In this document: piece by piece, positions 31,243 through 37,555 of the stretch
Layout: each line of letters opens with the position of its first letter
How positions within the stretch are numbered: the first letter of the stretch is position 1
Source: an uncultured Paracoccaceae bacterium
GTDB taxonomy: Bacteria; Pseudomonadota; Alphaproteobacteria; Rhodobacterales; Rhodobacteraceae
Length of the DNA stretch: 64,000 nt
Assembly (NCBI GenBank): GCA_938005545.1
Contig: CALKXV010000009.1
Location: 62,001 to 126,000 of the forward strand
Direction of reading: 5' to 3'
The notes under the pieces: model-generated
Databases searched by the model: none
The model's input: the letters and a program-made list of their open reading frames with translations, nothing else
What the model was told of the DNA's origin: nothing
Program-made: the position numbers and the translations under genes

Positions 31243-31817
31243 TGAAGCCAATTGTCGCAATCACGCTGTCGCTTTTGTTGTCCGCCTGTGGTGGCGACGG
31301 TGGCGATACAATCGAGCGATCCGGTCTTGTGGCTCAGAAGATCGGCAATGTGCCCGGCCCGGGTGGATGCGGTGTTGTGGATGCCTTTCGTGTGACATCT
31401 GTGGCCGGTGTGCGCCTGTCGCAACCCGCAACGCTTAGCCGGGCCACTTTGGACCGATTGGATGGCTGGTTGCGCACACGCGCCATTCCCACCATTGGCA
31501 ATCGCGGTGGCGGTTTGGTCGGGATCACGGTACCCGCGCATTATGCGTGTCGGACGCGCAACAGCCGGCGCGGTGCGCGGTTATCGGAACACGCCAAAGG
31601 AAATGCCATCGATATTTCGGCCTTTGTGATGGCGGATGGATCGCGGTTGACGGTTCTTGGCGATTGGAACGGGCGCAATTCCAGTGTGATGCGCCAGTTG
31701 CACGCCAGTGCGTGCGGGCCATTCGGTACGGTTTTGGGACCCAACAGCGATAGGTTCCATCAAGACCATTTCCACTTCGATGTCGCCAGTTACCGCAGCG
31801 GACCCTATTGCCGGTGA
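31239..31817 (+). CDS. Extensin-like lipoprotein
   Basis: A 192-residue exported protein: signal peptide [21 protein letters not shown] with a lipobox (LSAC), then the extensin-like C-terminal domain (PF06904). The domain's markers are visible: GCGVVDAFRVTSVAGVRLS, SEHAKGNAIDISAF and the closing QDHFHFDVASYRSGPYC with histidines resembling the metal site of the VanY/MepA-like hydrolases. It may act on peptidoglycan. It overlaps tyrA (ATGA) and the next gene (GTGA), so it is part of the hisC operon. Confidence 0.88.
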   Translation: MMKPIVAITLSLLLSACGGDGGDTIERSGLVAQKIGNVPGPGGCGVVDAFRVTSVAGVRLSQPATLSRATLDRLDGWLRTRAIPTIGNRGGGLVGITVPAHYACRTRNSRRGARLSEHAKGNAIDISAFVMADGSRLTVLGDWNGRNSSVMRQLHASACGPFGTVLGPNSDRFHQDHFHFDVASYRSGPYCR

Positions 31818-32530
31818 AATATCTTGCGGTAATTCTGGGTATTGCTGCCGCCCCGGTTGCCGCAGAGGACAGCGCCTTTGTCAAAGCGAACATTCTAGGC
31901 ATTTTTTATCACGAGCTTGGCCATGCGGTGATCGACATCGAAGGCGTACCGATTTTTGGCCAAGAAGAAGACGCAGCGGATGTTTTCTCTATCTTGATGA
32001 TCGATGCGCTTTGGGAAAGTGAGGCCGCCGAGGCCCTGTCATTCCAAGCGGCCAATGGATTTTGGGCTGAGGCATCGTGGCGCGAAAGTTCTGGTGAAGC
32101 GATTGTATGGGCGGATGTTCATAGCCCGGATGAACGGCGCTATTACAATACGATCTGCCTTTTCTATGGGGCCAACCCCGATGAACGTGACGATTTCGCC
32201 GAAGACTTAGGCCTTCCAGACGAGCGCGCTGAAAGTTGCATCGAGGAATTCGAACTTGCTGATGAAAGCTGGGGGCCTGTGGTCGATGACATGATCGAAC
32301 GCGGTCCGGGTGACAGTTTTCGGTTTTCCGGTAGCGACGACACCTTGACCGGTCGTGTGGTGGCCAAAGAAGTCGACGCGCTGAACAAAGACATGTCGCT
32401 GGCGCAACCGGTTGATATCTTTGTGGAAGACTGCGGTGAGGCAAACGCATTTTATGACCCGGAGGCGGTCAGCATCACCATGTGTGTCGAGTTCGAAGAG
32501 CATCTGATTGAAATCGAAGATCTGCTTTAA
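31814..32530 (+). CDS. DUF4344 metallopeptidase-like protein
   Basis: Exported protein of 238 residues starting at GTG 31814 inside the previous stop (GTGA); the first 20 residues (KYLAVILGIAAAPVAAEDS) are a signal peptide. A zinc-peptidase helix IFYHELGHAVIDIEG is near residue 35, with a following EEDAADVFSILM that may give the third ligand, and DFAEDLGLPDERAESC later. This is the DUF4344 pattern (putative metallopeptidase). The rest is strikingly acidic. Substrate unknown; it is the last gene of the hisC-tyrA-extensin operon. Confidence 0.85.
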   Translation: MKYLAVILGIAAAPVAAEDSAFVKANILGIFYHELGHAVIDIEGVPIFGQEEDAADVFSILMIDALWESEAAEALSFQAANGFWAEASWRESSGEAIVWADVHSPDERRYYNTICLFYGANPDERDDFAEDLGLPDERAESCIEEFELADESWGPVVDDMIERGPGDSFRFSGSDDTLTGRVVAKEVDALNKDMSLAQPVDIFVEDCGEANAFYDPEAVSITMCVEFEEHLIEIEDLL

Positions 32531-34216: not shown

Positions 34217-35374
34217 ATGGACCAACCGGATCGCGACGTCGAGCGACAATTTGCACAACCCTATCGTCAGATCCTGACGATGGTTTTGGTGCTATTACTG
34301 GTCGGAGCTGGGGCCTATCTGGCCTATCCGCAGGTTGCACCGGTGTTTCTGGCTAACCCTTACTTGAACGGTTTCATTGGGTTTGTCTTCGTGATCGGTG
34401 TGTTCGCCTGTTTCTGGCAGGTGCTGCAATTGATTTCGTCGGTGTCCTGGATCGAAGGCTTTGCCCATGATCGTGCGGGCCACCAATTCACCAAAGCACC
34501 CCGTCTTGTGGCATCGCTTGCGGCTTTGTTGCGCAAAAAAGGCGCGCGCAATCAACTGGGCGCTTCCTCGTCCCGGTCGATCCTGGATTCGGTTGCAACA
34601 CGTATTGACGAAGCCCGCGACATCACAAGATACATCGTCAACCTTTTGATTTTCTTAGGTCTTTTGGGAACGTTCTATGGCCTTGCCACAACAGTTCCTG
34701 CCGTTGTCGATACGATCCGATCATTGGCCCCCCAAGAAGGGGATACCGGTCTGGCCGTTTTTGAACGCCTGATGTTGGGCCTTGAAGATCAGCTGGAAGG
34801 CATGGGCATCGCTTTTGCATCATCGCTGTTGGGCCTTGCCGGTTCGTTGGTCGTTGGTCTTTTGGAGCTATTTGCAAGCCACGGCCAGAACCGGTTTTAC
34901 CGCGAGTTGGAAGAATGGCTTTCAACCATCACCCGCGTCGGTTTCACGTCGGACGAGGGAACCAGCGGAAACCAGGATGGTGCAATGGCCCAGCTGGCAG
35001 AACACATGGCTGAACGGATCGACCAGATGCAGGCGCTTTTTGCGCAATCTGCGGGGCAAACTACAGCCGCCAACGAACAACTTGCCGAAGCCGTCGGTGC
35101 GCTGTCGAATAACGTTGGTGGCGGCGATCAGAGCCTGATTGTTCAAAGCCAAGAGCGACTTTCCGCCGCTCTGGAAGGCCTGAGCCAGGAAGGCACCGGC
35201 AATTTCGACGCCGAAAGCCGGATGCGTTTACGGTCAATGGACGTTCAAATGCTCCGTATCCTTGAAGAGATTTCTGCCGGCCGCCAAGAAAGCATGGGCG
35301 AGCTACGCGCAGATATCGCGCAACTGACCAAAGCCATCCGCCTGATGGGACGTCGCGGCCCGGACGGGGGCTGA
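34217..35374 (+). CDS. MotA/TolQ/ExbB-like proton-channel protein
   Basis: A 385-residue inner-membrane protein. Two N-terminal helices (about residues 20-40 and 52-75), a cytoplasmic stretch, then two long helices forming the MotA/TolQ/ExbB domain (ITRYIVNLLIFLGLLGTFYGLATTVPAV and GIAFASSLLGLAGSLVVGLLELFA), and a 140-residue helical cytoplasmic tail. Such proteins form a pentamer around two copies of a partner and use ion flow to move it. The tail is absent in plain ExbB and recalls ZorA of Zorya defence. The partner gene follows 3 bases after the stop. Start ATG 34217 is preceded by a GGGGCC-type ribosome site; the longer frame is rejected. Confidence 0.87.
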   Translation: MDQPDRDVERQFAQPYRQILTMVLVLLLVGAGAYLAYPQVAPVFLANPYLNGFIGFVFVIGVFACFWQVLQLISSVSWIEGFAHDRAGHQFTKAPRLVASLAALLRKKGARNQLGASSSRSILDSVATRIDEARDITRYIVNLLIFLGLLGTFYGLATTVPAVVDTIRSLAPQEGDTGLAVFERLMLGLEDQLEGMGIAFASSLLGLAGSLVVGLLELFASHGQNRFYRELEEWLSTITRVGFTSDEGTSGNQDGAMAQLAEHMAERIDQMQALFAQSAGQTTAANEQLAEAVGALSNNVGGGDQSLIVQSQERLSAALEGLSQEGTGNFDAESRMRLRSMDVQMLRILEEISAGRQESMGELRADIAQLTKAIRLMGRRGPDGG

Positions 35375-35377
35375 TCC

Positions 35378-37555
35378 ATGGCGCTGACCCGGCGATCTGT
35401 CCAACGCATGTCCGGCTCGATCTGGCCCGGTTTCGTGGATGCGATGACGGCGCTTTTGCTGGTCCTGATGTTCGTGTTGACGATTTTCATGGTCGTTCAA
35501 GGGATGCTGCGCGAGACGATCACCGGTCAGGAAAACGAGCTGGATCAACTGGCCAATGAGATCACAGTGCTCAGCCAAGCGCTTGGCGTGTCGCAACAGC
35601 AGACGGCCCAGTTGGAAGACAACCTTTCGACATTGCAGGGTGAAAGCAACCGCCAGGCAACCCTGATCGCCTCGCTAACCGGTCAGATAAACGATCAGGC
35701 GCGCACCATCGCAGACCGGGACGCCGCAATCGCCACGTTCGAAGATCGCGTGGCCAGTCTTTTGGGTGAACGTGACGCGGCATTGGCCGAAGGCGTAACA
35801 TTGGCCGCCGAGATCGACGATCTGGAAGCAGCGCGCGCGCAACTGATCACGCAACAGGAAGCCAACCAACTGGCCCTTGCCCAAGCACGCACCGAGATCG
35901 ACGACCAAGCTGAAGCCGCGCGACTGGCGGCAGCGCAACGCGAAGCCCTTGAAGCATTGACCGCCCAGTTGCAGGACGAAGCCCAAGCGCGCGAGGCGTC
36001 ACTGGTCGATACACTTGCCGCCCTGACCCAAGCGCAAACCGATAGCGCCACTCAGACCGCCTTGCTGGCCGAACTGGAAAGTCAGGCCGAACGCACCACT
36101 GCCGAGCTGAACGCCTCGGAAACTGCCCGTTTGGCGGAAGCTGCCGCTGCCGCTGCCTTGCAAGAACGGCTTGCCAATGCCGAAACCCAACTGACGGCAG
36201 AAGAACAAGCCCGCCTTGCCGAAGCCGCGGCCGCCGAAACCCTGCGTGAACGTTTGCGCAATGCGGATGCCGAACTGACGGCGATGACGCTGGCTTTGGA
36301 AGAACAACGCAAAGCCGCCGAAGACACGCTGACCTTACTGGCTGCTGCCAGTGCCGTGGAAGCCGATCTGGACAGCCGCTTGGCTGACGCTTTGATCCGT
36401 TTGGAAACAGCCGAAGGATCACTGGCCAACACGACCGCAAGCGGTGCGGAGTTGCGCGAACAACTGGCCTTGGCAGAAACCGAACGCGACACCGCCCGGA
36501 TCGAGGCCGCCACGTTGCAATCCCAACTGAGCGAAGCGCAATCGCAAGTCGAAGCGCTTGGCACGTCAGCCGAGGAACGTGACACGGTCCTTGCGCAACT
36601 TTTGACCGAGCGAAACACCCTTCAGGCCGAATTGGATGCCATGCAGGCCGCCTCAACTGACGCCTCAAGTTTGCGCGAACAACTGGCCTTGGCGCTGGCG
36701 GCGAAAATAGCTGCCGAAAACGCAAGCGCGACGCAACTCAGCGAAAGCGAACGCCAAGCCGCGCTTTTGGACACTGCACGCCAAGCGCTGCAAGAAGAAC
36801 AAACGATCTCAAGCCAGGCGCAACGCGAGGCGGCGGTCTTGAACGAACAGGTCACCGCGTTGCGGAACGATCTTGATACGCTCCAAGGGTTGCTTGACAG
36901 CGCAGCAGCAGCAGACAACGCCGCAAAGGTTCGTATTGAATCCCTTGGCAGCGATCTGAACCAGGCGCTGGCACGGGCAGCGGCAGAAGAACGTCGCGCT
37001 GCAACCGAAGCGTCACGACGTGCCGAGCTGGAGGCCGCAGAAGCTGAACGGTTGCGTATTGAAGCCGAACGCCTGAGCGAAGAAGTCACCGATCTGGCCG
37101 AATATCGCTCGGAATTCTTCGGCACCCTTCGACAGGTCTTGGGCGACCGCGATGGCATTCAGGTTGTCGGAGACCGCTTTGTCTTTTCCTCCGAAGTTCT
37201 GTTCGAAAGCGCCTCGGCCACCCTGTCAAGCGAAGGTCAGACCCAGATCGCACAGGTCGCGAACATATTGTTCGATGTCTCGGAACAAATTCCAAACGCT
37301 GTTGATTGGATCATTCGGGTCGATGGCCACACAGACAATGTTCCCTTGTCCGGGACGGGCGCATTTGCCGACAACTGGGAACTTAGCCAAGCCCGCGCGC
37401 TGTCCGTCGTCAGGTTCATGACCGAAGTGCTGGGCTTTCCGCCATTGAGGTTGGCCGCCACTGGCTTTGGTGAATTCCGGCCCGTCAATACCGACGACAG
37501 TCCCGCTGCGCGCGCTCAGAACCGCCGGATCGAGCTGAAGCTGACCGAACGCTAA
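35378..37555 (+). CDS. MotB/OmpA-like protein with giant coiled coil
   Basis: A 725-residue protein. Residues 1-18 are cytoplasmic and basic; a single transmembrane helix (about 19-42) begins PGFVDAMTALLLVLMFVL, with an aspartate in the position used for proton transfer in MotB/ExbD. Residues about 45-574 are almost unbroken heptad-rich helix (many A, E, Q, L; segments such as LAEAAAAAALQERLANAETQ recur in variant form). The last 150 residues are an OmpA-type peptidoglycan-binding domain (IIRVDGHTDNVPLSG, NWELSQARA, AARAQNRRIELKL). It pairs with the channel gene upstream. By topology the coiled coil must be periplasmic. Function unknown. Confidence 0.87.
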   Translation: MALTRRSVQRMSGSIWPGFVDAMTALLLVLMFVLTIFMVVQGMLRETITGQENELDQLANEITVLSQALGVSQQQTAQLEDNLSTLQGESNRQATLIASLTGQINDQARTIADRDAAIATFEDRVASLLGERDAALAEGVTLAAEIDDLEAARAQLITQQEANQLALAQARTEIDDQAEAARLAAAQREALEALTAQLQDEAQAREASLVDTLAALTQAQTDSATQTALLAELESQAERTTAELNASETARLAEAAAAAALQERLANAETQLTAEEQARLAEAAAAETLRERLRNADAELTAMTLALEEQRKAAEDTLTLLAAASAVEADLDSRLADALIRLETAEGSLANTTASGAELREQLALAETERDTARIEAATLQSQLSEAQSQVEALGTSAEERDTVLAQLLTERNTLQAELDAMQAASTDASSLREQLALALAAKIAAENASATQLSESERQAALLDTARQALQEEQTISSQAQREAAVLNEQVTALRNDLDTLQGLLDSAAAADNAAKVRIESLGSDLNQALARAAAEERRAATEASRRAELEAAEAERLRIEAERLSEEVTDLAEYRSEFFGTLRQVLGDRDGIQVVGDRFVFSSEVLFESASATLSSEGQTQIAQVANILFDVSEQIPNAVDWIIRVDGHTDNVPLSGTGAFADNWELSQARALSVVRFMTEVLGFPPLRLAATGFGEFRPVNTDDSPAARAQNRRIELKLTER

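Follow-up and report, generated by a model that had tools for sequence, protein, structure and literature searches.

A motor-like gene pair of Alphaproteobacteria with a coiled coil of free length and fixed heptad register

Introduction

Two adjacent genes, called A and B here, lie within a 64,000-nucleotide stretch of genomic DNA from an uncultured Paracoccaceae bacterium (the window). The first encodes a four-span membrane protein and the second a one-span protein in which 556 residues of coiled coil separate the membrane from an OmpA domain. What could such a pair do, and where would so long a coil be housed? As a single straight rod, the coil of B would measure about 83 nm (556 × 0.1485 nm), in agreement with the length near 80 nm given in a preliminary description of the locus. 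From one membrane to the other, the periplasm spans a few tens of nanometres, and the same description was right that the coil is much longer; at 83 nm it is well above that depth, so that coils of such length would have to be bent or placed sideways.

The family annotation of both genes was already known, and the pair is thus not the undescribed machine that it was first taken for. In particular, B is a full-length member of the "peptidoglycan -binding protein" family PRK09039.1-1, one of the curated NCBI models for B (PRK09039.1-1 to -5, NF006542-NF006546), and A is annotated in databases as a "MotA/TolQ/ExbB proton channel". A record from S. meliloti names the same adjacent pair, a MotA/TolQ/ExbB proton channel family protein followed by a peptidoglycan -binding protein, flanked by genes for an inositol monophosphatase and an ABC transporter. 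The PRK09039 sister models describe whole proteins of about 343 aa, with coils about three times shorter than the one here. No functional study or experiment on the pair in any organism was found in the literature, and publications on PRK09039, MotAB evolution, 5:2 motors, CenKR, DalA and NCR peptides yielded nothing on it. What is new here is a coil of free length and fixed register.

Results

Anatomy of the gene pair

The coordinates and anatomy of both genes in the preliminary description (open reading frames, four spans, a tail of ~140 residues, the Asp-bearing span, the coil and the OmpA domain) are correct and are detailed in Table 1. B starts 3 bases past the stop codon of A.

Table 1. 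Coordinates of the features of genes A and B within the window.
Feature	Position	Strand	Basis
Gene A, 385-aa four-span subunit of the MotA/TolQ/ExbB fold	34217..35374	+	PADLOC ZorA1, E 2e-11; AF2 match to TolQ, ExbB, ZorA and MotA
A, third span, bearing the family-signature core LGLLGTFYGL (T152), conserved	34649..34705	+	Invariant columns in 41 class-wide sequences
A, cytoplasmic helical tail, about 140 residues, with conserved SRMRLRSMD...SAGRQES region	34949..35371	+	
Gene B, 725-aa one-span protein (putative axle) with coiled coil and OmpA domain, PRK09039 family	35378..37555	+	NCBIfam NF006542, 782 bits, cut-off 388
B, WPGFVDAMT motif, membrane Asp21 and single span (22-40)	35423..35497	+	Asp in 100/100 family members checked
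B, heptad coiled coil, 556 residues between fixed landmarks (residue 42, residue 599)	35504..37171	+	Period 3.50; no proline; AF2 helix
B, block b1, conserved Ala-rich coil, residues 173-202	35894..35983	+	109/109 Rhodobacterales in one phase modulo 7
B, block b2, conserved coil, residues 291-327	36248..36358	+	b1-b2 phase constant in 102/109
B, block b3, class-wide conserved C-terminal collar of the coil, residues 483-537	36824..36988	+	55/59 class and 41/41 order members
B, OmpA peptidoglycan-binding domain, residues 608-716, NWELSQARALSVV motif	37199..37525	+	Pfam PF00691, E 7e-16

The hydrophobic spans of A lie at about 19-37, 52-70, 136-163 and 195-217. The Pfam MotA_ExbB model (PF01618) scores 12.9 bits on A, below its cut-off of 22.9, and the best named sequence matches are ZorA models in PADLOC; these models are 420-1063 long, whereas A has 385 aa and a tail near 140 aa, which is not the very long cytoplasmic tail of the ZorA type. 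The AF2 model of A (mean pLDDT 78) matches the structures of TolQ, ExbB, ZorA and MotA with Z of about 11, 11, 10 and 9 over 180-200 residues, where the Foldseek E-values are weak (best 0.04) and a Z near 11 is indecisive for helical bundles. The helical tail of the model by itself matches unrelated bundles, and a profile search of the PDB with A1 returned unrelated coiled coils only. A combines the multi-span fold with the conserved TM3/TM4 signature, and B has one span bearing an acidic residue, as expected of the MotA/TolQ/ExbB 5:2 motor superfamily. The tail length of A does not track coil length in Rhodobacterales, and the two covary weakly in Alphaproteobacteria. Elsewhere, two A open frames are oversized, at 929 and 561 codons (L165:5644-8433 and L160:3908-5593) versus the usual 385-430, and have either extra domains or mis-set starts.

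The coil of B contains 15 glycines, and its hydrophobic periodicity has a power of 0.224, compared to a maximum of 0.132 over 500 shuffles. Between residue 43 and about residue 406, nearly all 28-residue segments share one heptad register, with the segment at 155 fitting another heptad offset slightly better. The AlphaFold model of B is an almost continuous helix from 20 to 588 followed by the OmpA fold (mean pLDDT 71, pTM 0.34), and the monomer has low-confidence breaks in the coil at about 174-180, 282-295, 394-397 and 506-512; the structure predictions used Rhodobacterales-only alignments. Block b1, which overlaps a low-confidence break at 172-186, usually lies about 130 residues from the membrane (typically 123-137, about 19 nm) and is, as a conjecture, a candidate bend or contact site, while b2 overlaps a low-confidence stretch at 275-300. 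Homology of the Asp-bearing span to that of MotB (YADF-TAMMA), together with the basic N-terminus, would place the coil on the periplasmic side. At the far end, the wall-binding motif N..LS..RA..V of the OmpA domain is intact in 99 of 101 sequences.

Coil length and heptad register across relatives

Measured from the end of the span to the start of the OmpA domain, the coils of relatives range from 137 to 988 residues, so that the 556 residues of B are not extreme. The proteins came from sampled genomes and from one scan dominated by Rhodobacterales, and what is said of groups outside Rhodobacterales draws mainly on the sampled genomes. Outside this order, 59 proteins have coils of 137-610 residues, 44 of them multiples of 7 (best period 3.50, vector length 0.84); within it, 41 proteins have coils of 294-731 residues, of which 20 are divisible by 7 and most others leave remainders of 3, 4 or 6. 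Across all 100 proteins, the coil length is divisible by 7 in 64. When each length is counted once, to limit the effect of shared ancestry, 37 of 71 unique lengths are divisible by 7 (p = 7e-14), and moduli other than 7 and its multiples give nothing comparable. A further 74 proteins, mostly from Rhodobacterales genomes, have coils of up to 988 residues. Moreover, the coils contain only 0.19 prolines per 1000 residues, and their power at 3.3-3.8 residues exceeds that of all 200 shuffles in 93 of 100 cases.

The conserved blocks served as rulers for locating these changes in 113 distinct coils. The interval from the membrane to b1 keeps one phase in 109 of 109 coils with 11 different lengths, the interval from b1 to b2 does so in 102 of 109 with 21 lengths, and the interval from b3 to the OmpA landmark in all 113 with 6 lengths. 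Most of the growth (70 lengths, from 51 to 666 residues) and most of the off-register changes fall between b2 and b3. In 90-100 of 100 proteins, b3 is followed by a conserved register slip, which lies about 33 residues upstream of the OmpA landmark. Overall, the evolutionary growth and shrinkage of the coil nearly always proceed in whole heptads. Counts of register slips did not discriminate the coils from shuffles. Slip bookkeeping could explain 35 of 36 remainders, but since the phase is fixed at both coil ends, this agreement is largely tautological and was not counted as independent support.

Tandem DNA repeats account for coil growth in only a few members, and a tandem-repeat search found no close repeat in the B gene of the window. 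In one relative (L173:11168-14152), the B gene contains two sets of tandem repeats, one with 8 copies of a 105-base unit (35 aa) and the other with 3.6 copies of an 84-base unit (28 aa). Both units span whole heptads, a pattern that points to growth of its coil by tandem duplication. In another (L129:6453-8474), a hendecad-like unit of 11 residues recurs about 13 times in the coil, with a 66% match.

Whole-heptad steps are expected wherever coil flanks coil; they thus indicate that insertions and deletions were selected to keep the local register throughout. By themselves they prove neither a straight rod nor rotation, and they leave bends possible. The coil acts like a rod that is locked in register but free in length, which is at odds with a spacer for a fixed gap. 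In addition, the coil lengths show no preference on the scale of the superhelix, from which the angle of the coil's end relative to the membrane seems free; this freedom would suit, and hints weakly at, a rotating part.

Discussion

A probable envelope motor

With somewhat better than even confidence, we read the pair as an ion-driven 5:2 envelope motor whose dimeric axle is extended as a long periplasmic coiled coil held by the cell wall. The fold of A, the Asp-bearing span and the wall-binding domain all fit motors of this type. Five A subunits would ring the spans of two B subunits, with an ion path along Asp21 of B and polar TM3/TM4 residues of A, and ion flow would turn the A ring and the B axle against one another. 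Both B chains would emerge from the membrane in a single parallel, two-stranded coiled coil that ends in OmpA domains gripping the peptidoglycan. Being free in length but constant in heptad register, such a coil would be no strut across a fixed gap and must bend, possibly at b1/b2, or follow the wall. It could transmit torque, and its great length could let it store twist. A published estimate places the torque of 5:2 motors (about 40 pN nm) close to the torque that uncoils a coiled coil (PMC9389320), so that over hundreds of residues the coil could serve as a compliant spring. For scale, simulations of E. coli place the outer membrane about 8 nm from the wall (PMC8824477). The task of such a motor in Alphaproteobacteria would probably be a housekeeping one, the upkeep of the envelope or cell wall.

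A more ambitious version of this mechanism, in which the register-locked shaft is many times as long as the periplasm is deep, runs along the wall as a torsion spring or as a long-range drive cable to distant wall sites, and has its length tuned in each species, seems to us rather unlikely.

Two other readings share this modest standing. The pair might be a wall-tethered ion channel or tension sensor that does not rotate; a pull or twist on the coil would gate A, and the tail of A would relay the signal. A long compliant tether, a wall-binding end and the conserved cytoplasmic tail on A would all suit such a device, and a free coil length suits a tether as well as a shaft; however, the conserved Asp and the ring fold of A belong to ion-driven motors, and a tether could do without so strict a heptad register, although the stability of the coil might by itself call for one. 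On balance, we consider it improbable. We are similarly doubtful of a compact bundle of folded-back helices of ~100 residues, which would fit into an ordinary periplasm and be compatible with motor function. The four breaks in the AF2 monomer, two of them near conserved Ala-rich blocks, may indeed reflect a segmented or folded-back coil, but single-chain models tend to fold long helices back, and one heptad phase spans the first two breaks. Further, length changes of one heptad occur as often as those of two, a mild argument against paired hairpin arms.

Distribution and inheritance

The preliminary description had proposed a survey of co-occurrence and neighbours in Rhodobacterales. A is present in 148 of 149 sampled genomes of this order, covering all 73 genera. 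In 97 of 101 loci it sits immediately upstream of B, and the sampled loci have housekeeping neighbours. The usual neighbours are an elongation factor P-like gene, inositol monophosphatase and an ABC transporter in the class, and prephenate dehydrogenase, an aminotransferase, ChaC and others in Rhodobacterales. Taking E below about 1e-31 as strong, the B family has strong matches in about 180 of 289 sampled alphaproteobacterial genomes, and the misses are mostly small genomes or belong to a few families. In a 398-genome sample of the phylum, strong matches outside the class are confined to six genomes of three families. The pair is chromosomal and vertically inherited, unlike a defence island.

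Several loci add observations of their own. The six genomes placed outside the class (G492, G552, G586, G567, G776 and G681) have strong A homologues (E 1e-99 to 1e-144), through either transfer or a wider root of the family. The sole sampled Rhodobacterales genome lacking A (G006) is rated 100% complete, and its genus-mates keep a diverged copy, so its copy was either recently lost or replaced. In 12 of 60 loci outside Rhodobacterales, a gene just upstream of A (for example L109 position -2, 352 aa) encodes a secreted, proline-rich protein with an OmpA-like C-terminus, a possible third partner of the pair. Convergent and downstream of B in about half of the class loci, a gene shared by 31 loci (for example L118 position +1, 606 aa) encodes a fused membrane-ATPase ABC transporter. 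In the window itself, a putative DUF4344 metallopeptidase gene (31808-32530) shares 10 bases with an extensin-like gene and lies close to a DUF2125 gene; these are ordinary neighbours.

This distribution makes a diverged phage defence motor of the Zorya type very improbable. ZorA models are the best named matches of A and the plan of the pair is the same, but A is in nearly every genome of the order, the sampled loci have housekeeping flanks, none of 50,697 phage records contains A, and the five "plasmid" matches are replicons of 3.5-4.6 Mb. Moreover, a search for zorC plus zorD/zorE beside the pair found no PADLOC defence match among ten neighbours, where Pfam detects housekeeping families. 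The zorC profile PF15611 gave no match across the genome but none in any control either, and is neutral on the matter. The likeness to ZorA/ZorB without the other Zorya genes, pointed out in the preliminary description, is real as a layout, but does not extend to the long part, a cytoplasmic tail in ZorA and the coil of B here. Least credible of all is an accessory flagellar stator, for although the fold, Asp span and OmpA domain are related to those of MotA/MotB, A is kept in 18 of 18 Rhodobacterales genomes without FliP and the sole genome without A has FliP, making the pair independent of flagella, and the genome's own MotA (contig C2) and MotB (C1) are separate genes away from the pair. 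TolQ and Pal (both on C5) are likewise encoded elsewhere, and the Tol-Pal operon (tolR, tolA, tolB, pal) is absent at the pair, which has different neighbours; the earlier view that the pair is neither TolQR, ExbBD nor flagellar Mot is upheld.

A natural length series

A motor-like pair is thus spread over most Alphaproteobacteria, Sinorhizobium included. Its coils form a natural length series, from about 20 to 147 nm if straight, in which motor and anchor stay constant. The series makes testable both the torque that is borne by a coiled coil in a 5:2 motor and the housing of a rod that is longer than the periplasm.

Comparison with known systems

ZorA/ZorB shares with the pair the fold of A, a one-span B with an OmpA domain, and adjacent genes. 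Wall binding by ZorB matters for function in Zorya, as do ion flow and the tail of ZorA, and the long part there is this cytoplasmic tail (PMC11890865), whereas here it is the coil of B; the pair also differs by its vertical inheritance and the absence of other Zorya genes nearby. The MotA/MotB stator has the membrane Asp motif and the OmpA wall anchor in common with it, but MotB has a short plug and linker in place of a coil of hundreds of residues, and the pair is present without flagella. By Z-score, TolQ/TolR and ExbB/ExbD provide the closest fold to A, tied with ZorA within about 1; in contrast to TolR and ExbD, B has an OmpA domain and a coil. SMC arms are also long coils under evolutionary length constraints (PMC5344682), as here, although their lengths cluster at superhelix-scale modes that the B coils lack. 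Finally, GldL/GldM is also a 5:2 motor with a long periplasmic shaft, of 18 nm (PMC9389320); the GldM shaft is built from four folded domains, whereas the coil described here is variable in length.
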